In this document: positions 28,628 to 46,641 of the stretch, piece by piece | How the letters are laid out: the number at the start of each line of letters is the position of its first letter | How positions within the stretch are numbered: position 1 is the first letter of the stretch | Source of the DNA: Verrucomicrobiota bacterium | Lineage (GTDB): Bacteria > Verrucomicrobiota > Lentisphaeria > JABSQK01 > JAJFLO01 | Assembly (NCBI GenBank): GCA_021772635.1 | Contig: JAJFLP010000079.1 | Span: 1-64,000 of the forward strand | Direction: 5' to 3' | DNA length: 64,000 nucleotides | Notes under the pieces: generated by a model | Seen by the model: only the letters and a program-made list of their open reading frames with translations | The model's database searches: none | What the model was told of the DNA's origin: nothing | Position numbers and translations under genes: made by a program

Positions 28628-29941
28628 ATGAAGCTTCGCGACTATCTATTCGAAATAGCAACCAAAATCCCGAAGTACGAAGCGGTTCGACGTGGCTGGT
28701 CTCGAACCGCACAGCCTCTAACGCTTACATTCTCCGTTACCGCAGCATGCCAGAGCCGTTGCAAAACCTGCAATATCGGAAATGTCTATCTCGCGAATCC
28801 GAGGATAGCAAAAGATAACCTGTCGCTTGAGGAAATCGAAAAGACCTTCAAGTCCTTGGGGCATATCTATTTTTTCAACGTCTCCGGCGGCGAGCCGTTT
28901 ATGCGTAAGGATCTCGCCGAAATCATCCGGCTTGCCTGCATTCACCTGAAGCCGCGACTCATTCATATCCCGACCAACGCGTTGGCACCAAAATTTATCG
29001 GTAAAACGACACGTAAGATCCTGGAGTATATGGGCGAGCATCTTCCGGCATCTGTACCTATTTCGATCAAACCCTCAATCGACGGTATCGGTGCGATGCA
29101 CGATTATGTACGCGGTATCGACGGAAATTTCGAGAAACTTGAAAAAACGATCGACGTGTTGCTCGAGATTCGTCGGGAGAATCCACGCCTGCACGTTGAC
29201 CTCGGGACGGTGATCTCAAACCTCAACATTCACCACCTGGATGATATTGAAGACTGGGTTCACGCCCGCGGCATCGAATCCTATCGGCACGAGATCGCGG
29301 AGCAGCGCGCTGAATTTCATAACCTTGGCGACCCGATCACGCCACCGCCGGAAGTCTACGAAGAACTGACGGGCCGATTTAAAAACATGGTCATCCAGAA
29401 CATTAAGAATAAAGCATTCCTAACCAGGACAACTGAAGCGGTTCGCGTAACATACTACGAAATCGCGGTCGAAATCCTAAAGCAAAAGAGACAAGTCTCC
29501 CCGTGTTACGGCGGGATCTCGAATATCCACCTCAATTATAACGGTGAGATCTGGCCGTGTTGCGTGCTTGGCGGCGAACAGGCGTTGGGCCGGGTACGCG
29601 ACACAAATTACGATATGCAAAGCATTTTGCGTTCAGTACAAGCAAAAAAAGCACGCAAATACATCGCTGACGGAAATTGCGCATGCCCGCTAGCGAATCA
29701 ATGGTTGAACAACGTCTTACTCACCCCACGTCATATGATGAAAGCGCTTTATACGTTATTTTTTCGCTTTCCTTTCGCGAAAGCGGACGATAAATATCGG
29801 CGTGCGCATCGTGTGGTTGATCCCAAAGACGTCAAAGTACACATCGGAGAAACGTCGCCTCGCTCAGCAATCGTCATGCGAAAACTGGGAACAATCCCGG
29901 ACGCTGAACAAGTTGAACTACCCGTTGTGACCAATGATTAA
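28628..29941 (+). CDS. Radical SAM protein with C-terminal SPASM-like Cys region
   Basis: TFSVTAACQSRCKTCNIGNVYL (CxxxCxxC); FNVSGGEPFMRKDL; C-terminal GEIWPCCVLGGEQALGRV...NCACP. Confidence 0.9.
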   Translation: MKLRDYLFEIATKIPKYEAVRRGWSRTAQPLTLTFSVTAACQSRCKTCNIGNVYLANPRIAKDNLSLEEIEKTFKSLGHIYFFNVSGGEPFMRKDLAEIIRLACIHLKPRLIHIPTNALAPKFIGKTTRKILEYMGEHLPASVPISIKPSIDGIGAMHDYVRGIDGNFEKLEKTIDVLLEIRRENPRLHVDLGTVISNLNIHHLDDIEDWVHARGIESYRHEIAEQRAEFHNLGDPITPPPEVYEELTGRFKNMVIQNIKNKAFLTRTTEAVRVTYYEIAVEILKQKRQVSPCYGGISNIHLNYNGEIWPCCVLGGEQALGRVRDTNYDMQSILRSVQAKKARKYIADGNCACPLANQWLNNVLLTPRHMMKALYTLFFRFPFAKADDKYRRAHRVVDPKDVKVHIGETSPRSAIVMRKLGTIPDAEQVELPVVTND

Positions 29942-30683
29942 TTCCATTCGCCTGCCATGGTTTGTTGTTGTTTTGTTCGTCATTGACTTCGCGCTCGCCG
30001 GCGTCTTCATCACTGATTATTTCATCGGTAGCCCTGTCCAAGCGTTAAGCAATTTCATTGACCTCGACGGAGAATGCAATTTTAGTGCCTGGTATTCGTC
30101 ACTCCAGTTATTCGCCGTCGGACTTTTACTCGGAGTCTTCGCATACTTTAATTTCAAACGCACAGATGCGAAATCTTGGGTATTCGTATTCCTCCCGGCG
30201 ATTTTTTTCCTCCTCTCATTAGACGAGAGCGCTCAAATTCATGAATGGATCGCTGAACAAAGCGATACTTTTTTGCCCGGTAAAAGCCGGGAGAATACAC
30301 CGTTCCCCGTGACTGGTATCTGGATATTTTTTCTTGGCTTTCCGTTCTTGGCGCTAATGCTCTTCATCTTTATTAAACTTAAGGTTCTGATTCGAGGGCG
30401 CGGACATGTACTCGCAATGTTTCTGGCCGGGGTAACGGTGTTCCTAGGTTCCGCAACGACACTTGATTTACTTGAGAATTTTTTACCCAGCGAGGGCACA
30501 CTGCGTACGCTGCAGATCATGTTCGAGGAGCTGGGAGAAATGGTCGGTGTTACAATTCTTATTTGGGCCAGTTGCGAACTGTTACGATCGTATAATTTAA
30601 AAGTCTCTATGAATCCGATCGTCGATGCGTCGACGAATTCATTTGACAGGCAGGAAAGCGGAGAAAGTAACGAAACGCGTTAG
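29934..30683 (+). CDS. Multi-TM hypothetical membrane protein
   Basis: Several hydrophobic helices; LDGECNFSAWYSSLQLFAVGLLLGVFAYFNFK; start overlaps stop of upstream gene. Confidence 0.6.
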   Translation: MINSIRLPWFVVVLFVIDFALAGVFITDYFIGSPVQALSNFIDLDGECNFSAWYSSLQLFAVGLLLGVFAYFNFKRTDAKSWVFVFLPAIFFLLSLDESAQIHEWIAEQSDTFLPGKSRENTPFPVTGIWIFFLGFPFLALMLFIFIKLKVLIRGRGHVLAMFLAGVTVFLGSATTLDLLENFLPSEGTLRTLQIMFEELGEMVGVTILIWASCELLRSYNLKVSMNPIVDASTNSFDRQESGESNETR

Positions 30684-31932: not shown

Positions 31933-33756
31933 TCATAACGTGGAAAAGTAATCCTCCAGGGCTACCAGAAACAGTCCCATATCATCAATGGTTAAATCTC
32001 CGATGGTGCCGATACGAAAGGTGTTCGTATCCTGTAGCTTCCCCGGGTAAATAGTAAAGCCCCGGTCTAACAGATAATCGTGCATCGCCTCGAAAGAATA
32101 TCCTGGCTTGTCAGGCTCAGCAATGGCAGTGATCAGCCTGCTTTGATGATCAACCGGTATCAAACAGTTTAATTCCAATCTCTGCAGCCCATCGACTAAT
32201 ACTTGCCAGATTGCGGTATATCGTTGATAACGGCACTCAATCCCTTCAATTTTAGTCTCGATAACTGCCTGTCTCAGTGCATATAATGTCTGCACCGGCG
32301 GGGTAAACCGCATTTGCCGATTCTTTCTCATAAAATAGTATTCCGCGTATAAATCAAGGTAATAATTACGCCGTTTGAAATCGGATGTCCTTTCCAGTTT
32401 TTCTTTCTCAGCAACGACGAAACTGACCCCGGGAAGTCCCTGGAGATTCTTATTCGATGACGCCGCCAGACATGCCACATTTTGATCGACCATATCAATA
32501 GGAAGGGCGGCATAAGAACTCATTGCATCGACCAGTAACGTTATACCGCGTCGTCGGCAGCAATCACCGATCGCGGTGAGATCGTTAACAAGTCCTGTAG
32601 TGGTTTCGTGATGAACGACGGCCAGGTACCCGATTTTATCCGTCTGCGCGTCGATTACTTTCTCTAATTCTTCCAGTTTCAGCGCCTCAGTCCAGGGACT
32701 TTTGTACTCAACCGTTGTCAAGTCGTATGCGTGCGCGATCTCGCACATACGACGGCCATAGGCACCATTTTCGATGATCAGAACCGGTCGTTCATCAACA
32801 ACCGAACTCAACATGGACTCAACCGCGGCTGTTCCAGATCCGTTTAACAGGACTGCGGTAAATCGATCAGTTGGCGCGACGAAGGCGGTAAGCTCATCTG
32901 TCAGGTAGGATAGTAAATCGCCAAACGCCTTCTCACGGGGACACTGGTCGGTGACGATTTGGCTCCGTTTAACGCTGTTGGTCGTGGTCGCCGGTCCCGG
33001 TGTATAGAGTATGGACCGTATCGGGAAGCCGATGTTCTCGGTAACATGGAGTTTCGGCGCGATCTGCGTTTTGGCGATCGACAAATGATGTTCGTCATCA
33101 ACCTCGCACCAGACGAGATTCGGTACCTTAATGATATGTATCGGAATTTCGGGAGCGAGTGCGGTTAAAACATCTTCGTAGTTTAAAAGCGGCGACCTCG
33201 AACGAAGGATGAAATCTGTTGCTTCGAGAAACGTTCTATGGGATATTCTGGATATCCCGACGAGAACGCCGTAAGGTTCTCGGATTGCGTCCCGATCTTT
33301 CGTCATTGACGTTAAGTTATATCGTTCATCAGCTTCGAGAAACACTTCGTCGCCGTAGGAAGTCTCACCGCTCGCCAGTATACAGTCGGGCCGGTTGTGA
33401 AAGATTAAAGTTTGCAACGCCAACGGTTCGTAGAGAATATCCGATTCCAGCAACAGAAAATCTTCTGTTATGAGGTTTTCAAATCGAACCAACGTCGCGG
33501 CGCTTCCCGTAGAGCTGAAGTGAGGGTTTTCGAGACACTCAATAAAAGGAAATTGAATCTTGAGTTCCTCATAAAATTCCTTCTTGAAGCCCGTACCGAC
33601 AAATATTTTTTCGATCCCGTTTGCCAGCAGATTACGGATTGAGCGCTCAATCAACGTTATTCCGTCTACAGGCAAGAACCCCTTTGGTTGGGATTCCCAT
33701 AACTTCCCGAGGCGGGTGCCGATCCCGGCAGCCAAAATAAGTGCGGTTCTGATCAT
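31933..33756 (-). CDS. PntC-PhnW-type fusion: phosphonate nucleotidyltransferase + 2-aminoethylphosphonate transaminase
   Basis: N-term LILAAGIGTRLGKLWESQPKGFLPVDGITLIERSI; C-term LYTPGPATTTNSVK...GSGTAAVESMLSSVV...ASSNKNLQGLPGVSFVVAEKEKL (PhnW-type aminotransferase). Confidence 0.85.
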   Translation of the reverse strand: MIRTALILAAGIGTRLGKLWESQPKGFLPVDGITLIERSIRNLLANGIEKIFVGTGFKKEFYEELKIQFPFIECLENPHFSSTGSAATLVRFENLITEDFLLLESDILYEPLALQTLIFHNRPDCILASGETSYGDEVFLEADERYNLTSMTKDRDAIREPYGVLVGISRISHRTFLEATDFILRSRSPLLNYEDVLTALAPEIPIHIIKVPNLVWCEVDDEHHLSIAKTQIAPKLHVTENIGFPIRSILYTPGPATTTNSVKRSQIVTDQCPREKAFGDLLSYLTDELTAFVAPTDRFTAVLLNGSGTAAVESMLSSVVDERPVLIIENGAYGRRMCEIAHAYDLTTVEYKSPWTEALKLEELEKVIDAQTDKIGYLAVVHHETTTGLVNDLTAIGDCCRRRGITLLVDAMSSYAALPIDMVDQNVACLAASSNKNLQGLPGVSFVVAEKEKLERTSDFKRRNYYLDLYAEYYFMRKNRQMRFTPPVQTLYALRQAVIETKIEGIECRYQRYTAIWQVLVDGLQRLELNCLIPVDHQSRLITAIAEPDKPGYSFEAMHDYLLDRGFTIYPGKLQDTNTFRIGTIGDLTIDDMGLFLVALEDYFSTL

Positions 33757-33803: not shown

Positions 33804-33995
33804 TTAGCGGTAGTCACGCATAAATTTTCGAACTTTTTTAACAGACGTCATGTCTCGCCGCGTCTCCAGTCGTAGTCCCAACCCCTTGTTAATCGCGGCG
33901 TTAATCAGGCCTTTAAGATACGAGCACGGGACACCCGTAAATATCGTGAATCCGTGTTCCTTTAATCGTCCCGTAATGGCGCTGGTTGTTAGCAT
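33804..33995 (-). pseudogene. Truncated phosphonopyruvate decarboxylase (N-terminal remnant)
   Basis: [36 protein letters not shown] matches the Ppd N-terminus (FxGVPCSxLKxLIN), but ORF is only 63 aa; start overlaps pepM stop. Confidence 0.75.
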
Positions 33996-35587
33996 GTGAA
34001 ACCACTGGCCTTCTGAAGATCCACAATCGTGTTGATGTCCAACCACGAACCACTTACGAATTGAACGGCAATTGAGGTCGTCTTCGCAAGCTCTCTCAAC
34101 AGGTCGGCAACCGTCATCTTGGGCAGATCCTCCGTTTCGCTAAGGCGCGCCATAAGGTCGGCAAGTTGGCGTGCGCCGTTTTTAGACACTTTCCAGAGTC
34201 CGACGAACTCACCCGATCGGTCTTGAATCGGGAGTTCCGTAGAAATCTCGACCATTGTAATGCTACGGGCAAAAAATGATTGAGCGTACAGGACATCTGT
34301 CCGCACCCAGTATGCTGTTCGACTTTCAGATTCACTGTGTGCATCGACGACTATCGTTACATCGGCGGGAGCGTTAAGCAAGTCGACCAACATATGCCTC
34401 TTGAAGATTATATCGCCGAAACTGATTATCGTTTCTTTGTTTAAATATTTCTTCGCACAGAATAATGAGTATGCTTCCCCGGATTCCAGGTACTGAGAAT
34501 TTTCGATTTTGATAATATTGTCAAGGTTAATCTTATCCTTTTCAAACCCGCAAACAACAATCGTCTCGTCCGTTCCTTGTCGCCTGAACGCCTCGGTTTG
34601 ATGCTGTATGATCGGTTTACCATCCACTTTCAGCATCGCTTTGGGAATATTATCAGTCAGTACGCCAAGTTCGCCCTGAGACGCTGCCAGAATGACAGTA
34701 TTCGTATCGCGTTTGCCCGTTGGCATATACTTTTTCTCCGCGATCGCGAGCTCCCGCGAATTCTGCAGTTCGAATATATGCCCAACCCCGGCGATTTTGT
34801 CCTCCACATCCAGTATCGACTGTTCCCGGTAGATGCGCCCAAGTATGTCCTCCATCGAGCTTGTTGCTGCACGTAGCGAGTGGTTTGCCCAGATGACGGT
34901 ATTGACATTGAAAGACCGGAACAAATCGGTCGGGGTCGTGTAATAAGCCGTTGGCACGAGCACGACTGGATGACAGTTGTCCCAGGCCTTCAGAAACTGT
35001 TCAATCTCGTTGAAATCTGGTTGTTTACTGTGAATTAAAATGGCATCTGCGCCCGCCTCCCGGTAAGCATACGCACGCTCGAGAGCGGCCTCAACGTCTA
35101 AGCCAGCGATCAGAGCTTCCACCCGAGCAACGACGACGAAATCGTCGTCACGCTGTGTATCTTTTGCCGCTTTAATCTTGCCACAAAACTCATCGACATC
35201 GGCTAAGCTTTGTTTCTGATTCTTCAACAATGAGTTACGTTTCGGAAACAGCTTATCTTCGATACAAACTCCGGAGATATCGCGCTGTTCCAATTTCTTG
35301 ACCAGCCGCCGGACGTTGTTAAAATCTCCATAACCGGTATCTCCGTCCAGCAAGATCGGGATATCGATAGCGTCGTTCATAAAATCTAACACCTCCAGAA
35401 TCTGTGTCCACGACGCTTCATTATTATCACGGACACCCATTGAAGCCGAAATTGTCAGGCTACTGGCCCAGATCCCTTTGAATCCGGTATTTTCAACGAT
35501 CTTTGCCGATAAGCCGTTGTGAGCCTCCATCAAAAAGTCTAATTCCGGCCCCGTGACGATTGCTCTCAGTTGTGTAGTTTTCTTCAT
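33989..35587 (-). CDS. Phosphoenolpyruvate mutase / nucleotidyltransferase fusion
   Basis: PepM motif [16 protein letters not shown] (EDKx5NS), [22 protein letters not shown]-term [36 protein letters not shown] extends to 35602 via TTG. Confidence 0.92.
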
Positions 35588-35700
35588 AGATGACTTTCCC
35601 AATATATGCCCATCGTCATTGTTTTTTTAACCGGCCATCTCCATCTGGGCGACGGCTGTTCGAAAACAAAGCCACCCCTGGGCAACAGTCGTCAGTTGAG

Positions 35701-38379
35701 CTATTTCTCGGTGTACTCCCAGTTGTCCTCGTCATAGACATCGTCACGGACCTGAACGTAGCGCTTTACGCGGAACTTCTTCTTTTGTCGCCAATCCCAG
35801 TTGCCATGTTGTGTTATTGCGTGTTCCACCACACGATTCTCTGCTGGTTTTCGTATCGGATCCTCCCCGATCCCCTCACAACCGCCGATTGTAGAGCACA
35901 ATATAGCCGCAATATCAGCATTGCTCATCAACTGCTTTGAAACGTGAAGGCTTCCCCGTTCATTGAAATCTTTGACCATCAACAATGCGAAAATAGCCTC
36001 GTGATCCCATTTCCTGCCGCGACCGCTACTCCCGTGATCGGAGGCAATGATGATTTTTGTGTTGTCGTACACGTTATTTACCTTCATCCAATCGAACCAA
36101 TCTGAAAGTGCCTGGAGCGCACATGCCATATGATAAGTGTATTCCTCATCTCCGTCCTTGTCGTACTCACCTCGTAAATAATCATCGACCGCCGGCCCGC
36201 ACCCGGCGGATTGTGAACCTCCTCGAATGGTGGCTCGGCTCCAAAAGAATTTCAGCGTCGGTTTATCAGATATCGCATTGCTGACTTCATCAAGTAAATC
36301 CAGTATCGGCCAGAATTTGAGATAGGAATTCAACATCCAGTTGGCCGTCCCGTTTTTTTGGACCTTCTCAATGTAAGAGGAATTGAATGCCGGATCATCC
36401 TCTGACGACAATAAATTCAGCAAGGGCGTGTTCTGCATAGACCATTGGGTTTTCGCAGATGAGCGGTTCAGAGTAGCGTTAATTCGTCGATAATGACAGG
36501 CTTTTACGAACCCCGGCATACTCTTAAATAGTGACAACTGCCACAGCGTCTCGTCGTAAAAACTGGCGGATATCGATGCCTCCATAGACAGCACCTTTTT
36601 CTTACGCCAATATGGTATGTACTGACCATAATGATGGACATTTACGCCGCGGTCAACTAAAAGTCGCTCAAAATCCTTGGTGATCCACTGAGGGTCTATG
36701 AAGGAAATTGAGTATCCCATCCCGCCGAAAACATGGGGATATAATGACCAGGCTTCATCAATAAATTCGCCGACCGTTTTTTCGTTATCATTATTCTTCT
36801 GACGCACCGTATATCGGTGGCCTCCGACCAGAGCGGCTGTAGAAGGTAACGTGAACCCGCCGGTTGATACCGTATTTCTAAACCACGTAAAGCCGTCAAG
36901 ACCTTCAATTAAGTCGGATCGAACCATGAGCAACTCACTCAGCAATTGTGCCGGGAATGCATCCAGTATAAACACCACGATATTCGGATGGTCTCGCGAA
37001 AAAGAAAATACCTCACCCGTGTTTTCAGGCAGCGTCGGAACTGGTTTTTGCTCCGCTGTGAGAGATCCGCGGTCAAAAAGCGCCTTGTAGTTGTGGACAA
37101 ATTTTATTGCATCCACCGACTGCAATACCAACACCACAGCCAGAAACAGCGCAACGGGTTTCACGATCTGGTGGTAGTATCTCAGGACACCTGCAAATAG
37201 ACTAATGAGCAATAGAGCTTCTATAATTTTCGATGAAAGACTCATGCCGGCGAGTACCTCTATATTGGTAAAGCTCACACCGCGAATTATACCCAGATTA
37301 TAGTCGACAGCATAGCCAAAGATGTATACGACGACAGCAACCGCTAAACTTAGCCGTGTAAGAATACTGGACAGTGGCCCGACGAACACGGTAATAAGAT
37401 ACATCCCAACACCTCCGACAAGACATTTACCGACCATCGTTACAATGTGAGTGATAAACAGGCTCTCGGAATTGATGCCGAACGAATCGGGGCTGGAATA
37501 GTAGATATACAGGGGATTGAGTACGGCGACGACATAAATTATCGCGCAGTAAAAGTAGGCGAAGGGTAGGAATCCAGGGCGGCTACCCGATTTCGAGCCG
37601 ACATCGAATATATGATCGGCTGTACGTTGGCACCAAACCTTGATATCGCTTACGAAATTTTCATTGGGTCTGTCTTTAACCTCCATTGCCGGGCTCTGCA
37701 AGTATTGCAGATTAAAGAAGTGCCCAATCCCGTTCTTCATCATCGAAAAGAGATTATTGAGTGTCCAGTAAAACACCAGGCCAGCGGACGCGCTGTAAAG
37801 AACCACAAGAAATATCAGCGCCAACACCCACAGTTGCATCTTCTCCTTGTGATCCATCCGGGCAGCGTAGACATACGCGGAAAGGATATTCACCGCGGTC
37901 ATGACGATAGGGAGAACGTTTATCGCGGTGTCGCCGAACGTCGCAAGCCGATCGGGAGCGCCCAAGTCTTTAATGAAAAGGAAACCAACACCCTCGAACG
38001 CGGGGAAGTTTAGCAGGAGATGATAGGCGGCGAAAAAGAAAGGTATCTGAATTAAGAAGCCGAAGGACACTTTAATCGGTGACAAGGGATGGTAGTTAAA
38101 TCGCCGATAGACCGCTCTGATATAAAAATACCGCTCTTGCCCTTTCGAATGTTTCTTTATCGACGAAAGCTCGGATGCCATCTGTGCGTGCTTTCCTTTA
38201 ACGTCGACTTTCCACTTCTCCGCCAGGAAATACAGTGGCAGTAAAACGGCGTTAACCAGTACGCTTAGGATCACGAGTGACACGCCGTAGCTGTCCGTGA
38301 CCGCGTACGCCGAGTCCAACGCCACTTTCATCGCCGCTTCCAGCGGAAATATAAAAATCAAATGGAGGATATGCGTCAT
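35701..38379 (-). CDS. YidC/Oxa1-like membrane domain fused to LtaS/sulfatase-like (alkaline-phosphatase superfamily) domain
   Basis: N-term YGVSLVILSVLVNAVLLPLYFLAEKWKVDVKGK...LSPIKVSFGFLIQIPFFFAAYHLL...LVFYWTLNNLFSMMKN; C-term PNIVVFILDAFPAQLL...VSTGGFTLPSTAALVGGHRY...IIIASDHGSSGRGRKWDHEAI. Confidence 0.88.
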   Translation of the reverse strand: MTHILHLIFIFPLEAAMKVALDSAYAVTDSYGVSLVILSVLVNAVLLPLYFLAEKWKVDVKGKHAQMASELSSIKKHSKGQERYFYIRAVYRRFNYHPLSPIKVSFGFLIQIPFFFAAYHLLLNFPAFEGVGFLFIKDLGAPDRLATFGDTAINVLPIVMTAVNILSAYVYAARMDHKEKMQLWVLALIFLVVLYSASAGLVFYWTLNNLFSMMKNGIGHFFNLQYLQSPAMEVKDRPNENFVSDIKVWCQRTADHIFDVGSKSGSRPGFLPFAYFYCAIIYVVAVLNPLYIYYSSPDSFGINSESLFITHIVTMVGKCLVGGVGMYLITVFVGPLSSILTRLSLAVAVVVYIFGYAVDYNLGIIRGVSFTNIEVLAGMSLSSKIIEALLLISLFAGVLRYYHQIVKPVALFLAVVLVLQSVDAIKFVHNYKALFDRGSLTAEQKPVPTLPENTGEVFSFSRDHPNIVVFILDAFPAQLLSELLMVRSDLIEGLDGFTWFRNTVSTGGFTLPSTAALVGGHRYTVRQKNNDNEKTVGEFIDEAWSLYPHVFGGMGYSISFIDPQWITKDFERLLVDRGVNVHHYGQYIPYWRKKKVLSMEASISASFYDETLWQLSLFKSMPGFVKACHYRRINATLNRSSAKTQWSMQNTPLLNLLSSEDDPAFNSSYIEKVQKNGTANWMLNSYLKFWPILDLLDEVSNAISDKPTLKFFWSRATIRGGSQSAGCGPAVDDYLRGEYDKDGDEEYTYHMACALQALSDWFDWMKVNNVYDNTKIIIASDHGSSGRGRKWDHEAIFALLMVKDFNERGSLHVSKQLMSNADIAAILCSTIGGCEGIGEDPIRKPAENRVVEHAITQHGNWDWRQKKKFRVKRYVQVRDDVYDEDNWEYTEK

Positions 38380-38380
38380 T

Positions 38381-38563
38381 CTAGCCTGACCTATGCTTGA
38401 ATTTCGTTGCGAGAGCGCTCAGTCTTCTTGAAATCGAGGAGTTATGAAGGTTGTGAGGGCGAAGGAATATAGATATATTTTGAGATCTCAGGTTCTTCAT
38501 AACTCATTTAGTTCGAGGATAATCCGTGCTCGGAGTAGAAAGTTCATGCATAGGTCAGGCGAG
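38381..38563. mobile_element. MITE-like element, 183 bp
   Basis: ctagcctgacctatgcttgaa...ttcatgcataggtcaggcgag inverted termini. Confidence 0.82.
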
Positions 38564-39799
38564 TTCCTTCATAATCTGGAGGAGCTGCTCCGCGGCGGTC
38601 TCTCCTGCATTGCCGAAGTTATACACGTATTTTTCTCTCAGCTTGTCCAAATCAATGGGACTCTGATCGCTGACCAGTTTACGCAGTATCGCGGGCAGCT
38701 CGTCAAAATCCGTTTCATTGAGCGGGTGCCCGACCTGGTTTTGGATAAATAGTTCGTCAATATAATCCGGGATATATTCACCTTCGAAGCCGTCGAAGTT
38801 GAGTTCACAATCGACGGTTACAACGGGCTTTTTCAGGAGAAATACGCAATCGAATACAATCGCGGAAAAATCGGTTATCACGATATCGGACTCCGCTAGT
38901 ACCGCCGCGGGTGACGGTGCGGTATCAATCGTCACGTCTCGGTATTCGCGAAGCTCCGATTTTATTTCGTTAAATAATTCGATTTGCGAGACGAGTGTCT
39001 GCGGATGCGGTCGAAATATGACCTTAAATTCGGGGTTGTTTAACAAGGCCCGGAAGAAATCTATCCCGAAGCGGGTGATCGATGCGTTTACTCCCCATGA
39101 CGGCGCGACAAGTACGGTAATCTCCCCATCCTTTTTCGCAGGCGGGGTCGTCTTATCACCGAGCATGCTATCGAAGTATGTAAGACCGGTCTGAAGAAGC
39201 AGCTTTCGCGGGGTGCCACGGGCCTCTTCGAGTTTTCTAATGCTATCGACCTGGTGAGGACCGGAACACAGAACCGAGTCGAAGTAGTCGAAGGCGAAAC
39301 GTTGAAACGTCAGTATTTCGCCTGACGTATGCATAATATGCGCGTAGTGATCTACGTTCTTCGATCGACGTAGATGGAAGATATCCAGTTGCGGTGTGGT
39401 CATCGCCACGATTTTCGCACTGATATTATTCAGGTAGGCGGCCAACCGATAATGACCGCCGATACATTTGGTAAAGACGTGTTCTAACTCACAATCTAAA
39501 CCGGGGTCATTTTCGTCGGACGAGATATAGACGCACGGCACCGCCCTTTCATTCAAGGCTTTAATCACGGGAGCGAATACGCGCCAGTAGTGCCCGCCCT
39601 CCGAGTAAAAAACAATTTCCGCGCCCGGGATAGTCTCGAATTTCGCCGCAACCGTGCCGAAAATTACAGCAGCGAGTCTGTAGTAAGCACCGCGGACGGC
39701 ATACAGCATAGAGCTCACGAGACCGATAATTGCGTAAATCAGCATACTTCCGGTACCGGGATCGATATAGGCAAGATTGTAGAGTGGTGTGCTATTCAT
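38555..39799 (-). CDS. CDP-glycerol glycerophosphotransferase (TagB/SpsB)-like
   Basis: IVFYSEGGHYWRVFAPVIKALNERAVPCVYISSDENDPG...VLVAPSWGVNAS..FKVIFRPHPQT...VTIDTAPSPAAVLAESDIVITDFSAIVFDCVFLLKKPVV. Confidence 0.82.
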   Translation of the reverse strand: MNSTPLYNLAYIDPGTGSMLIYAIIGLVSSMLYAVRGAYYRLAAVIFGTVAAKFETIPGAEIVFYSEGGHYWRVFAPVIKALNERAVPCVYISSDENDPGLDCELEHVFTKCIGGHYRLAAYLNNISAKIVAMTTPQLDIFHLRRSKNVDHYAHIMHTSGEILTFQRFAFDYFDSVLCSGPHQVDSIRKLEEARGTPRKLLLQTGLTYFDSMLGDKTTPPAKKDGEITVLVAPSWGVNASITRFGIDFFRALLNNPEFKVIFRPHPQTLVSQIELFNEIKSELREYRDVTIDTAPSPAAVLAESDIVITDFSAIVFDCVFLLKKPVVTVDCELNFDGFEGEYIPDYIDELFIQNQVGHPLNETDFDELPAILRKLVSDQSPIDLDKLREKYVYNFGNAGETAAEQLLQIMKELA

Positions 39800-40224: not shown

Positions 40225-40992
40225 TTAGACCCGAAAAGTGTCGGCCGACCGGGCGTCCGCGGCTTGATTGGGCGGGTAGCTTTTCCACTTGTCCGTATAA
40301 TAGGCTTCACGATGGTCGCCTGCGGATTCGCGGTTAAACGTAAGGAAGATATTTCGCCGGTAACGGTTGCTGGTATTGGCCGGCGAACCGTGTGGAATAT
40401 ACGAATCAAAGACAACGACATCACCGGGCTCGAGTTCCAGTACCTCGTATTCATCTGCGGACAGATCAGCCATGTCATCGTCTGATAACGGCTCCCAGGT
40501 CTCTGTCATCAATTCTTTTCGATAATCTCCAGTTTTCATGATACTCATAGCCGCGTTCTCGCGCGTATTCGGATCGACCGCGATTACCATAGTCAGAAAA
40601 TAATCGCAATATGTACTCCAACCTGCCGCCTGATCCTGGTGAAGACTATCGGCTCTGCCTCCTGGCGGCTTATTATTGACCTTGTCTTTAAACAACACCG
40701 GCCGCTCGCCAAGCAATTGCTGCAAACACTGCAGGGGCTTGTCACCCATCAGCAACTCCTGCAGCTCGGGATGGTAGTCGCCTACGATGTGCTCTACCCT
40801 CAGAAGCACACTTGCACCGGTGAGCTCGCTTCGCTCGTAATACCTAGCCTCCTCTCCCGGAAGCACCGTTTTTGACTCGAGCGTATCCAGACGATCTGAA
40901 ATGGTCGATATCGTTTTAGCGTCGAAGAAGTTTCTAAGTACAATGAATCCCAAGTCCCGAAATTTCTGCATCTCGTCAGTATCAATTGTCAT
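40225..40992 (-). CDS. Phytanoyl-CoA dioxygenase (PhyH) family Fe(II)/2OG oxygenase
   Basis: FRDLGFIVLRNFFDAKTISTISDRLDTL...LHQDQAAGWSTYCDYFLTMVIAVDPNTRENAAMSI...ELEPGDVVVFDSYIPHGSPANTSNRYRRNIFLTFN. Confidence 0.88.
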   Translation of the reverse strand: MTIDTDEMQKFRDLGFIVLRNFFDAKTISTISDRLDTLESKTVLPGEEARYYERSELTGASVLLRVEHIVGDYHPELQELLMGDKPLQCLQQLLGERPVLFKDKVNNKPPGGRADSLHQDQAAGWSTYCDYFLTMVIAVDPNTRENAAMSIMKTGDYRKELMTETWEPLSDDDMADLSADEYEVLELEPGDVVVFDSYIPHGSPANTSNRYRRNIFLTFNRESAGDHREAYYTDKWKSYPPNQAADARSADTFRV

Positions 40993-42080: not shown

Positions 42081-44666
42081 CTATGGGAAATAAAGGCCGG
42101 AATCGGCTAGATGCTGAAGAACGAACTGCCGACGATTGGGGAGCCAATCCTTACCAACGGATCCGTCGTAACCGCTTTGGTCATCAAAGCCATCGATCAC
42201 TGGCTTCATGATCATCGCCAACCTCTTAAACTCTGCAGTAATTTTCCCGTCAGTTAATGCACCACCGCCCAAAAAATGGTATTTTACGCGGCGGGAGAAA
42301 AGGTTTCGAAACGGGTTGTCTACCGTGTGTCGGATAGCGACCAACTCGACATCGAGCGAAAAATCCGAGCTGGAAAGATTACGGTTATGCCCTTGGATAC
42401 TGATCACATTCCAACCCGGTTTAAGTAGGGGAATGTGAGCGCTGATGTCGAAAACCTCTGGTCCATTCGCCTCGTGCTCTGTACGAGAAAGTTGGTCGTA
42501 CGCCGGAAATCGACCGCTGCGATCCAGTCCAGCCGTTCGCATTACTTCATGACCGTTGATGTAGGCAACGAAGCTATCGTCGTAGTCCGCATTTAAGAAT
42601 AGTTGTTGAAATTCGGGGTCTTCGTCGACATGAAACTTCTTTCGGAGGTAGACCGAGCTGTAATTCATTCTCATGTCCTCCAGAATCGTCGCGTCGTCGC
42701 TGTCACCGTATCCAAAGCCTGCAGTGCCGGTGGGCCAAAGCGAGTCGTCGTAGTCGAGCTTCAGCCAAGCACTGGCAACCGTCGACGGCTCCTGTGTGCC
42801 TTTAAGATACCGCCACTCATCGCTCGTTTCCACGAGCACCGTGCAGTCCGGTCCGGAGATAAGCGCACGAAATAAACGTGGAATATCCGTTCCATATTTG
42901 TTGTATAGCGGCTTAATTCTGAATAGGTCCGAAATAATGTTGTCGTGCGATGGCGTTCGGCGCGCCCGCCCGAATGCGCCTTCAGCGTCCCATACCATGA
43001 AATCAAACTTTCCCGCGGGTTTACGTCTCCGAACTGCTGCCCAGTTATTTTGTGGCCAATCATGGGTTCCGGCATATATGTTCAATAAGAGATAGTCAAC
43101 AAAATTGGTTACATTGATCTTGTCGCTAATCCGGTCGTAATGGTCGCGGTTGGTTAGAAATTGACGCGGGATCAATGACATCAACTCAAGCCACGCGTCG
43201 AGGTCTCCATTTACAACGTTTCGATGCTGCCTGATCACGTCCCAGCGTTCCGAGGTCCCGCGTAAGGAGTTCAGGTAATCCTCATCAATTCTCTCTGTAA
43301 TATTGTAGTAGCCCTTGTATTCACCATTGATTAGCAGATTAGCAAAGGTCCCGAGGGCACTTTGATATCCCATCGCATCCCATAGCCGTCTCGTTAACTC
43401 ATCGCGGACAAACGGATTCTCTTGATCGTCAACACCGGCTCGGAGGACGACTTTATTAAGCGCTGCCGGACGCGCCCCGGGAATAAACACTGACGATAAC
43501 GTCGGAGTTCCGTACTCCGGTCGCAAATATAGTCGATATGAAAGCTTGCTGTCTCTGCAGGTTAACCTCCTCGTATTGTTGCTCCCACTCAAGCGAATAC
43601 CGCAATCGATAGCAAAATCGTGACCGTCCGTCGAGTTAAAGTACTCAACGGAGACCGATCTTTCCCACGAGCGACCGCGATTGATCGGGTTAAAGTATTC
43701 CGGGTATGGATGGTCCCGCCGGTACCAACGCGAACAGTCGCCGTTAACCCGTGTGTTGTCGCTCATACCGGCGATTCCAGTTGGCCCGACCAGGTTTTCT
43801 GTATCGGTCGCAATCGATACCACGGGAAGACTGCTTAATAAACGACCCTGATCGATTGAATAGGTCCGGGTGGTTACATCAAATGTTGCAAAATTCTCCC
43901 TGAATACAGCCGCTCTTAACACCTTCGACTCTTGGATTTCAATAGGGGTCTTATAGGCGAATCCGGTGCGGGCGGTTGGTGCGCTTCCGTCCGTTGTATA
44001 CCGTATGTTCGCAACTCGATCATCGGTTGATAACGTTACCCGTAGCGGACGCGCATAAATCCCATGCGGTTCACTAAATTCGACGCGACCGGTAAAATCG
44101 ATGTAAGAATTTGTGTTATTCGGAGCCCCGGGCGTCGGCGGAGAAAAGAAACGAAACGTTGAACTCAATTCGGAGTAGCCGTAAGAGTAATCTGGTCGTT
44201 GCGGCGGATACCGTGGCGAAATAAAACTGACAAGATTTCCCTGCCGACTATTGTCAATCACCCCAAGAAACTCTCCCGCACCTGACAACTTAAAATTAGT
44301 ATGTAAGTTCTTTGAGTAGCGGTCGGTCCGGTCCTTCCCGCTTGCAAAAACAATCAGATACGAACGCGCCGGTATGGCCACATCTGGAAAGACCCATTTG
44401 CGAGCATCCATTATATTATCCGTTAGCGACCAACCTCTTAATGGCACGGCCTTTTCTGAACGGTTATAGAGTTCGATCCAGTCTGAGGCCTCGCCATCCT
44501 CGTCCTTGAGCCCGTGGCTATTGAACGCCATGAATTCATTTATGATAATATTCTGCGCGTGCCCGCACCATGTAGTGACCAAACAGCAGCAGATCGTGAA
44601 TAGGGTAAGTTGTCGAAAAATTGTCATTAGATTCAGAACGCGATCCGGCCAGGCCGCTCTGTGCAC
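42081..44666 (-). CDS. CotH-kinase-like protein with lamin-tail and chitobiase-like domains
   Basis: NIIINEFMAFNSHGLKDEDGEASDWIELYNRSEKAVPLRGWSLTDN (LTD); VANIRYTTDGSAPT (CHB_HEX_C); FVRDELTRRLWDAMGYQSA...INGEYKGYYNITERIDEDYL (CotH). Confidence 0.88.
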   Translation of the reverse strand: MHRAAWPDRVLNLMTIFRQLTLFTICCCLVTTWCGHAQNIIINEFMAFNSHGLKDEDGEASDWIELYNRSEKAVPLRGWSLTDNIMDARKWVFPDVAIPARSYLIVFASGKDRTDRYSKNLHTNFKLSGAGEFLGVIDNSRQGNLVSFISPRYPPQRPDYSYGYSELSSTFRFFSPPTPGAPNNTNSYIDFTGRVEFSEPHGIYARPLRVTLSTDDRVANIRYTTDGSAPTARTGFAYKTPIEIQESKVLRAAVFRENFATFDVTTRTYSIDQGRLLSSLPVVSIATDTENLVGPTGIAGMSDNTRVNGDCSRWYRRDHPYPEYFNPINRGRSWERSVSVEYFNSTDGHDFAIDCGIRLSGSNNTRRLTCRDSKLSYRLYLRPEYGTPTLSSVFIPGARPAALNKVVLRAGVDDQENPFVRDELTRRLWDAMGYQSALGTFANLLINGEYKGYYNITERIDEDYLNSLRGTSERWDVIRQHRNVVNGDLDAWLELMSLIPRQFLTNRDHYDRISDKINVTNFVDYLLLNIYAGTHDWPQNNWAAVRRRKPAGKFDFMVWDAEGAFGRARRTPSHDNIISDLFRIKPLYNKYGTDIPRLFRALISGPDCTVLVETSDEWRYLKGTQEPSTVASAWLKLDYDDSLWPTGTAGFGYGDSDDATILEDMRMNYSSVYLRKKFHVDEDPEFQQLFLNADYDDSFVAYINGHEVMRTAGLDRSGRFPAYDQLSRTEHEANGPEVFDISAHIPLLKPGWNVISIQGHNRNLSSSDFSLDVELVAIRHTVDNPFRNLFSRRVKYHFLGGGALTDGKITAEFKRLAMIMKPVIDGFDDQSGYDGSVGKDWLPNRRQFVLQHLADSGLYFP

Positions 44667-44840
44667 CAGGCACCATACTTTTCGGCCGCAGCCGCGATCA
44701 AATTATAATGCTTTCTGTTAGATTTTTCTCACGGATTGGACTATTATGCTATACATAACCAATTTCCAGTTGGGCTTCGCAAATCCTAAGAATCAAATTC
44801 TTCGACATCATTATTGAAGCCCTGTATTCATCATCTCAGT

Positions 44841-44932
44841 TATACCGAAAATCATCAGGTTTTCGAAATATCGTTCGAATTCCCTCGCGTGGTTAGTTGA
44901 GAGTTATCCAAAAATTGTACTGCTTGCAGTAT
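44841..44932. repeat. ~93-bp TATAC-ended intergenic element
   Basis: tataccgaaaatcatcaggttttcgaaatatcgttcgaattccctcgcgtggttagttgagagttatccaaaaattgtactgcttgcagtata. Confidence 0.88.
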
Positions 44933-44966
44933 ATCAACTGAGAAAAAGAGGATCCCAATCGACTTT

Positions 44967-45653
44967 ATGAACGCATTCAAACTCAGCATCCGGAAATTCG
45001 TAACGGACGCAGTTAATGAGGTCCAGTTTTTCGACTTTCTCCTGCATCTGATAATGGCAGTTATTCTCGGAGTGATCCTGCAACAACTTTATATTCGATG
45101 TGGCAACTCGGTATCGAATCGTCGAAAGACAGCGTCAAACTTCGTATTACTAGCATGCGTTACGATGATCGTTATTTCGATTGTTAAGTCGTCACTGGCG
45201 TTGTCTCTCGGGTTGGTCGGAGCATTGTCAATTGTTAGGTTTCGAGCAGCAATCAAGGAACCGGAGGAGCTGACCTACCTGTTCATTGCGATTTCGATCG
45301 GCTTAGGCATGGGTGCCGGGCAACCCGGGATTACCTGTACCGGATTCGGGGTGATTTCTTTACTTATCCTGCCCAGATTTTTTTCCAGAAAATTACATTT
45401 GGATAACGGCTTTCTGTTAACAGTGTCTAACGAGTCAAGTGATGGTATCAAACTCAGCGAGATTACCGAAGTATTGGAAAAATATTGCAGCAACGTCCGG
45501 CTGAATCGCTACGACTATCCCGGGACTCGATCAGATTTCGCGTTTCACGTCCAGATTGATGACACGAACAGACTCGACTCGATCAGAACGGATCTTGTAG
45601 CAATCAACGATCAGTTTCACGTCGCCTGCCTGAACACTGATGATTTTGTGTAA
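44967..45653 (+). CDS. DUF4956 membrane protein
   Basis: SSLALSLGLVGALSIVRFRAAIKEPEELTYLFIAISIGLGMGAGQ. Confidence 0.88.
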   Translation: MNAFKLSIRKFVTDAVNEVQFFDFLLHLIMAVILGVILQQLYIRCGNSVSNRRKTASNFVLLACVTMIVISIVKSSLALSLGLVGALSIVRFRAAIKEPEELTYLFIAISIGLGMGAGQPGITCTGFGVISLLILPRFFSRKLHLDNGFLLTVSNESSDGIKLSEITEVLEKYCSNVRLNRYDYPGTRSDFAFHVQIDDTNRLDSIRTDLVAINDQFHVACLNTDDFV

Positions 45654-45948
45654 TTTACTCCTCTCAATAGGGAATTCTATTTAAGCAATTTCGAGAGTAT
45701 CGTTGTCCATGAATGCAGACTGGGGGCGGCCGAATTTTCGGGCATCGTAAATGGTACCGCCGACGGGATTCCGACGGGATTTTAATCGGCGTCGCATCGG
45801 TCATAGTACACGCTGTACCTCAAAAAAGGCGGAAGACACTCGGGCAACGCCGGGTCGTAATCTCCGAAATAATTAGTACACTCCTGGAACCACTCCGCTC
45901 AACAATCCCGGCCCCTCGTGCCCATTAACACGCGTAGAAACGGCTACT

Positions 45949-46641
45949 ATGGATACCCAGTCACACTATCGGTTCGAACGAAAGTATTCGACAACCAGAT
46001 ACTCAAGTCACCAAGTTGAAGCTCTCGTCAACCATCATCCGGCGTTATTTCGGGAGATATTTCATCCCCGCTCGGTAAACAACATGTATTGGGATACAAT
46101 TGGCCTGGGTGCCTATTTCGAACACACTATCGGATCCTATCAACGAACAAAGACACGGGTGCGATGGTATGGAGATCTGTACGGGACGACGAAGTCGCCG
46201 AAACTGGAGTTGAAAAAGAAGAACACTAATGTCGGATACAAAAAACGATACCCTCTTGAGAACTTTCATTTGCAGGCAGGGGATCTCGCCTCGTACCTGT
46301 ACCAGGAGATTGTGCAGGACGGCGTTCACCCGGAGGTGAAGCAACGACTCGCAAGTCTGACTCCAACGTTAATAAATAGTTATAAACGCAAGTACTTTCG
46401 CTCGTTATGCGGTCGTTTTCGGATTACAATCGATTCAGATGTTTCCTGTTATCCGTTACTGGGGGTAGCCTCATTGCCTGTAAACGGCATCAAGAATTCC
46501 CGATTAGTTATAATAGAACTCAAGTACTCACATCTGGATGACCTCCTCGCCACTGAGATTGCAGATAGCCTTCCGTTTACATTAACAAGAAATTCTAAAT
46601 ATATAAATGGCCTCCAGTTGCTATACAATTGGGTCCGATAA
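45949..46641 (+). CDS. VTC-domain (polyphosphate polymerase-like) protein
   Basis: RFERKYSTTRYSSHQVEALVNHHP...NNMYWDTIGLGAYFEHTIGSYQRTKTRVRWYGD...PKLELKKK...LVIIELKY. Confidence 0.87.
   Translation: MDTQSHYRFERKYSTTRYSSHQVEALVNHHPALFREIFHPRSVNNMYWDTIGLGAYFEHTIGSYQRTKTRVRWYGDLYGTTKSPKLELKKKNTNVGYKKRYPLENFHLQAGDLASYLYQEIVQDGVHPEVKQRLASLTPTLINSYKRKYFRSLCGRFRITIDSDVSCYPLLGVASLPVNGIKNSRLVIIELKYSHLDDLLATEIADSLPFTLTRNSKYINGLQLLYNWVR

Follow-up and report, generated by a model that had tools for sequence, protein, structure and literature searches.

Why should a bacterium with an ordinary YidC also encode a YidC-type core joined, in one polypeptide, to an enzyme of the alkaline phosphatase (AP) superfamily? 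The question is raised by a gene in a 64,000-nucleotide stretch of DNA from a Verrucomicrobiota bacterium (contig JAJFLP010000079.1; the whole stretch is termed the window here). The original prediction, made from the letters of the window, was of an insertase core repurposed as the membrane part of a phospho- or phosphono-transferase. The reading that we favor, and to which we give a probability of about one half, takes the fusion for the membrane-bound and periplasmic portion of a machine that decorates a surface glycan with a CDP- or CMP-activated phospho- or phosphono-group, its YidC core carrying the lipid-bound group across the membrane.

The fusion protein

The gene starts with ATG and is uninterrupted (Table 1). 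Its N-terminal part matches PF02096 over residues 31-215 (E 2.8e-22; 79.9 bits against a cut-off of 35) and TIGR03592 (85.4 against 84.3 bits), and by sequence its nearest entries in the PDB are structures of YidC, B. halodurans YidC2 being a phmmer match at E 2.9e-8. An AF2 model (mean pLDDT 78.7) contains the YidC core, then a second set of five TM helices, and an AP fold, with pLDDT about 79-96 for the YidC core (residues 11-220), about 86-97 for the AP core and poor values in loops. In the model the helices at residues 31-221 form a five-TM core with a cytoplasmic helical hairpin, so the fold on which the original prediction had staked its case is present. The order that it foresaw, a YidC-type core, then extra TM helices, then an AP-superfamily domain, also holds, and the usual large periplasmic domain of YidC (P1) is absent as claimed.

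Foldseek with the whole model returned PbgA/YejM, sulfatases, LtaS, MCR-1 and phosphonate monoester hydrolase (E 1e-5 to 1e-7); the top 50 matches are to the AP fold only, and the YidC fold of the window protein is taken from sequence and model helices. A scan with PF02096 and PF00884 had been proposed, and while the former is over its cut-off, the latter falls below it in the window copy (E 0.02; 14.6 bits against 25), with 25.2 bits for locus L068 and 38.2 for the AP protein of L118.

Table 1. The fusion gene, its parts and its neighbors in the window
Feature	Position	Strand	Details
YidC-AP fusion protein	35701..38379	minus	892 aa ORF
YidC/Oxa1 core	37729..38358	minus	residues 8-217; five TM helices and cytoplasmic hairpin; PF02096, model helices
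Second set of five TM helices	37072..37578	minus	residues 268-436; membrane part of AP module; model helices, alignment with stand-alone AP proteins L034-L036
Periplasmic AP-superfamily transferase domain	35704..37014	minus	residues 456-892; columns of 41 fusions, Foldseek
TagF-like CDP-group transferase, N-terminal membrane stretch	38555..39799	minus	upstream of fusion; PF04464 E 8.2e-8, 32.0 against cut-off 22.1 bits
PepM-NTP: PEP mutase fused to PntC-like nucleotidyltransferase	33989..35602	minus	downstream; TIGR02320 E 2.3e-111, NTP_transf_3
NTP-AepT: nucleotidyltransferase fused to 2-AEP aminotransferase	31933..33756	minus	downstream; TIGR03301 E 2.3e-110, NTP_transf_3
PhyH-type 2OG oxygenase	40225..40992	minus	further upstream; PF05721 E 2.8e-20; NF052437 methylphosphonate hydroxylase E 9e-32, below cut-off

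Phosphonate and other head-group genes

A link with pepM had been suspected, and the PepM-NTP and NTP-AepT genes do adjoin the fusion. Phosphonopyruvate decarboxylase (Ppd) is encoded on contig C74, not beside the others (497 bits against a cut-off of 312.5). As PepM, Ppd, AepT and a PntC-like domain are all present, the genome has what is needed for 2-aminoethylphosphonate (AEP) and probably also for CMP-AEP. The PhyH-type oxygenase may belong to this pathway as an AEP hydroxylase. The TagF-like gene next to the fusion is the sole PF04464 gene of this genome.

The same enzymes, with the same fusions of PepM and AepT to nucleotidyltransferases, are known from the Pnt phosphonyl tailoring pathway of PepM, Ppd, AepT and PntC (PMC6697681). 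The published work on that pathway ends at CMP-AEP, with LicD-like enzymes and glycosyltransferases named nearby; phosphonates made by bacteria are believed to go mostly into tailoring of the cell surface, the later steps of which have been called enigmatic (PMC6697681).

At other loci the neighboring genes point to several CDP-activated head groups, and the fusion is therefore not tied to phosphonates. PepM, Ppd or AepT genes are near the fusion or its variants at five loci (L085, L093, L098, L101 and L119), a nucleotidyltransferase with a choline kinase at three (L118, L091 and L107), a nucleotidyltransferase fused to an aminotransferase of class I/II at four (L090, L112, L078 and L115), and a PF01467 cytidylyltransferase-like protein at two (L080 and L121). 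All of these gene sets fit activation as a CDP or CMP derivative, though the exact products are deduced from gene content; the activated group in the window is probably CMP-aminoethylphosphonate, with other head groups elsewhere.

Distribution

Against 198 genomes of the window's class, the N-terminal half of the window protein matched canonical YidC and, apart from the window copy, nothing else; its C-terminal half, against 388 genomes of the phylum, gave three distant stand-alone AP proteins; the single protein gave no match in a genome contig scan, and plasmid records held ordinary YidC only. An alignment of these three stand-alone AP proteins with residues 268-892 of the window protein, used as query in the contig scan, found 60 loci, and at 41 of these (49 ORFs) YidC and AP are in one ORF. 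This query is free of YidC sequence, so that finding YidC at AP loci is not circular.

The hosts include Treponema and further spirochaetes, Lachnospiraceae and further Clostridia, Bacteroidota, Draconibacterium, Desulfovibrionaceae, Mailhella, a Coriobacteriaceae and others. In the family of one Treponema locus 72 of 118 genomes have the fusion; for the families of a Lachnospiraceae locus and of the Draconibacterium locus the figures are 6 of 150 and 2 of 100. Tandem copies occur, with three intact ones in L068 (6729-15201) and several, some broken by stops, in genome G529 (contig C1, 2064051-2083250).

The weak PF00884 match of the window copy, and its being alone in its class in our sample, could be thought to reflect a chimera of assembly, or an ordinary sulfatase or hydrolase with a chance YidC-like N-terminus. 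The 41 loci with the same fusion, and its presence in most genomes of one family, rule out the chimera. Type I sulfatases have a Cys/Ser-x-Pro-x-Arg formylglycine site that is absent here: the window protein has Thr510-Leu-Pro-Ser-Thr, and the nucleophile is a threonine in all 41 fusions. Taken together, these explanations are barely credible.

Three modules in exchangeable arrangements

The commonest arrangement is that of the window, YidC-AP with TagF. A TagF-like gene is on the fetched stretch at 28 of the 41 fusion loci, within 300 bases at 23; the other 13 have none on that stretch, partly owing to short contigs. At eight loci (L111, L114, L117, L118, L121, L122, L123 and L125) it is the TagF-like enzyme that carries the YidC core, and separate AP proteins adjoin. 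The YidC-TagF fusion of L118 was checked with Pfam; its model (pLDDT 80.5) has TagF (3l7k) as first Foldseek match and B. halodurans YidC at rank 45 (TMt 0.69). One 1466-aa ORF (L103:7944-12344) has AP, YidC and TagF-like domains together, in a genome that also has a YidC-AP fusion, and at L119 and L120 the three are separate genes, the AP frame of L120 being in two pieces. In all 14 fusion genomes counted, which have 1 to 8 PF04464 genes each, a TagF-like gene is within 5 kb of the fusion, where about 0.25 would be expected by chance; these genomes were hand-picked and the figure is indicative.

The swapping of the same three parts among fusions suggests that they work together, and the TagF-like enzyme, the YidC core and the AP transferase very probably form one decoration machine. 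The original prediction needs amending here: the YidC core and the AP transferase are real, but to call the core the membrane part of the enzyme is too simple, since the AP module has five TM helices of its own, like LtaS and EptA, and AP relatives without YidC exist. The YidC core is a third module, elsewhere fused to a TagF-like transferase instead. The same facts bear on the idea that the core has no task but to help fold the TM helices of its AP partner, as a built-in chaperone. Fusion to a ten-helix membrane protein gives that idea some appeal, but at the eight loci just listed the core is joined to a cytoplasmic enzyme, and there are AP relatives that have the same five helices but no such core; we regard the idea as very unlikely.

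Active site and relatives of the AP module

Asp473, Thr510 (36850-36852) and Asp781-His782 (36034-36039) are invariant in the 41 fusions, and by comparison of sequences Thr510 is assigned as nucleophile and the Asp/Asp/His set as metal ligands. The column of residue 718, which we take to be equivalent to His416 of LtaS, a substrate-side histidine, is His in 40 of 41 fusions; the window copy, with Ile718 (36226-36228), is the exception. The stretch around it is otherwise rewritten too, WSRATIRGG replacing the usual NxxTHEP. With this conserved histidine missing, the activity of the window copy itself is uncertain, and its AP domain may have a different substrate or reduced activity.

Stand-alone AP relatives had been expected to be near a YidC and a TagF-like gene as well. 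This expectation failed at L149-L153: four of these loci (L149, L151, L152 and L153) have neither nearby and a methyltransferase-like protein adjoins, and L150 has none of the three. At L108 an AP protein is accompanied by a YidC paralogue and a methyltransferase-like protein in a genome with no PF04464 gene; a second paralogue of this type was not found among 229 genomes of its class (E 1e-25). Thus AP relatives with no TagF-like gene nearby are mostly also without YidC, L108 being an exception, and YidC is no general requirement of the AP family. Where YidC does occur it is mostly in company with the TagF-like enzyme, in keeping with a group that is loaded at the cytoplasmic face and has to be moved from there.

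The YidC core: conservation, groove and origin

A canonical YidC elsewhere in the genome had been anticipated, and a 583 aa ORF on contig C27 is the sole other PF02096 gene. A further YidC outside the system is present not only there but in all 20 host genomes tested, and housekeeping insertion is thereby covered.

Among 41 full-length fusions the median pairwise identity is 0.50 for the YidC core, 0.36 for the AP domain and 0.22 for the second TM part, against 0.29 for canonical YidC cores of the same hosts. The fused core is the most conserved part of the protein, which argues that it is no idle anchor. The position of the groove arginine is Asn43 in the window fusion (38251-38253) and Asn, Ser, Thr or Gln in all 41 fusions, none having Arg or Lys. 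Inside the core helices polar residues are kept (N43 or Ser/Thr, N154, N164, N208 and N209). In canonical YidCs Arg or Lys is present in 30 of 30 from the window's class and in 16 of 20 from other hosts, the remaining four, from Clostridia, having Asn (3) or Tyr (1). The notion that the charge is universal in canonical YidC was dropped on account of these four, and its loss in the fusions is accordingly no proof of lost insertion.

That leaves room for a core that is still an insertase or chaperone and supplies the AP domain with newly inserted lipoproteins or membrane proteins, which themselves receive the phospho- or phosphono-group. Membership of PF02096 and the known function of the family speak for this, as do the four clostridial canonical YidCs that lack the groove Arg or Lys. 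The glycolipid MPIase, which acts with YidC in protein integration in E. coli, is a YidC-glycolipid link that also leans this way (PMC10881803). Against it are the constant partnership with a TagF-like CDP enzyme, suggestive of cytosolic loading of a small group, the uniform absence of groove charge in the fusions and the separate YidC that is always at hand. On balance it is unlikely.

The core might instead be a scaffold on which the TagF-like enzyme and the AP transferase meet so that substrate can be handed over, with no movement of lipid; this has somewhat better prospects, though it too is doubtful. Docking alone would account for a core fused to either partner, and the loss of groove charge from all YidC-AP fusions is in keeping with it. 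A scaffold would not be expected to be more conserved than the catalytic domain or to keep polar residues inside its helices, and a cytoplasmic product would still have to reach a periplasmic enzyme.

The YidC-AP cores make up a single clade in the tree (100/100) and form one group with the free-standing paralogues of L108, L119 and L120 (100/98), while the cores fused to TagF branch from within the canonical YidCs of Clostridia. A single clade of all fused cores and paralogues is rejected (AU p 5.6e-5; 4.8e-4 with the paralogues left out), values that serve as guides given the long branches and the choice of groups after a first tree. This suggests that the same machine acquired a YidC core on two or more occasions.

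A proposed route from cytoplasm to surface

LtaS and EptA take the group that they transfer from an outer-leaflet phospholipid. For a CDP-dependent enzyme the inner leaflet is the only one within reach for loading. In vitro, members of the Oxa1 family, YidC included, scramble lipids, and they appear to do so by way of the insertion groove (PMC10491306). The simplest joint reading of these three points is loading, crossing and transfer. In the window PepM, Ppd and AepT would make AEP and the PntC-like domain would convert it to CMP-AEP; the TagF-like enzyme would then place AEP from CMP-AEP on what is presumably a membrane lipid, on the cytoplasmic side. The polar groove of the YidC core would let the polar head of the lipid cross the bilayer, the cargo in this proposal being lipid and not protein. 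Finally, the AP domain would take AEP off the lipid via a phosphonyl-threonine intermediate at Thr510 and pass it to an acceptor that we suppose to be a surface glycan.

Whether the core provides the crossing step for a lipid-bound group is, in our estimate, evenly balanced. Since all Oxa1-family proteins tested scramble in vitro, the activity may be a by-product. Other points that count against the proposal are L108, the 13 fusion loci with no TagF-like gene on their stretch and the missing His718 of the window copy. Bacteria also usually build such lipids with CDP-alcohol phosphotransferases and not TagF-like enzymes.

The wider proposition is that a twice-recruited YidC-family core is a dedicated translocator of lipid-bound phospho- or phosphono-groups from a cytoplasmic CDP-group transferase to a periplasmic AP transferase, which would supply the late steps still missing from phosphonate surface tailoring and, for the Oxa1 superfamily, a natural case of lipid transport; we hold it tentatively, at a shade under even odds. 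If the core does move lipid, the function is categorically new. Whether proteins of the YidC type move lipids in living cells, a question raised by the scrambling in vitro (PMC10491306), can be asked of this machine in a natural context. It also offers testable candidates for the late steps of phosphonate tailoring, namely loading, crossing and final attachment. Since its head-group genes differ from place to place, and since it is frequent in Treponema and scattered among gut Clostridia, the machine may serve as a general route of surface decoration.

Relation to known systems

With LtaS, the EptA/MCR phosphoethanolamine transferases and PbgA/YejM the fusion shares five TM helices and an extracytoplasmic AP domain with a Thr nucleophile and Asp/Asp/His ligands. 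It differs from them in its N-terminal YidC core and TagF-like partner gene, and in a head group that would come from a CDP or CMP donor instead of PG or PE. What it has in common with the YidC/Oxa1/Alb3 insertases is a PF02096 match over cut-off and the five-helix core with cytoplasmic hairpin; in contrast to them it is joined to enzymes, has neither P1 nor groove Arg/Lys, and is additional to a canonical YidC. The partner enzyme shares PF04464 with TagF/TagB CDP-glycerol glycerophosphotransferases and TagF-like capsule polymerases, TagF being the top structural match of the L118 model, but it is short, is beside or fused to a YidC core and here probably has CMP-AEP as donor; a polymerase role is not implied.

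Each module is from a known family, and the three-part machine is apparently undescribed as well as widespread. The literature searched, which took in neither preprints nor most subscription journals, has no description of YidC fused to an AP transferase or TagF, of the swapped architectures or of the link to phosphonate tailoring.

Other genes at these loci

A short membrane stretch with the motif YIDP(G/S) forms the N-terminus of the TagF-like protein in the window (38555-39799) and is a separate small protein at L118 (9171-9755); perhaps it is a fourth module. Also beside the phosphonate genes of the window, at 42081-46641, are a CotH kinase protein with a lamin-tail domain (42081-44666), a DUF4956 protein (44967-45653) and a VTC domain (45949-46641), and at 28628-30683 a radical SAM/SPASM protein is followed by a 249-aa membrane protein of no clear family.

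The methyltransferase-like protein near stand-alone AP transferases is 460-520 aa long (L149:7417-8808, L151:8044-9561, L152:7942-9510 and L153:10753-12192). It is also found at L067 (1809-3203) and L108 (8810-10234), in both with SFRDPGG near the start, and its pairing with AP is perhaps a second, different decoration system.
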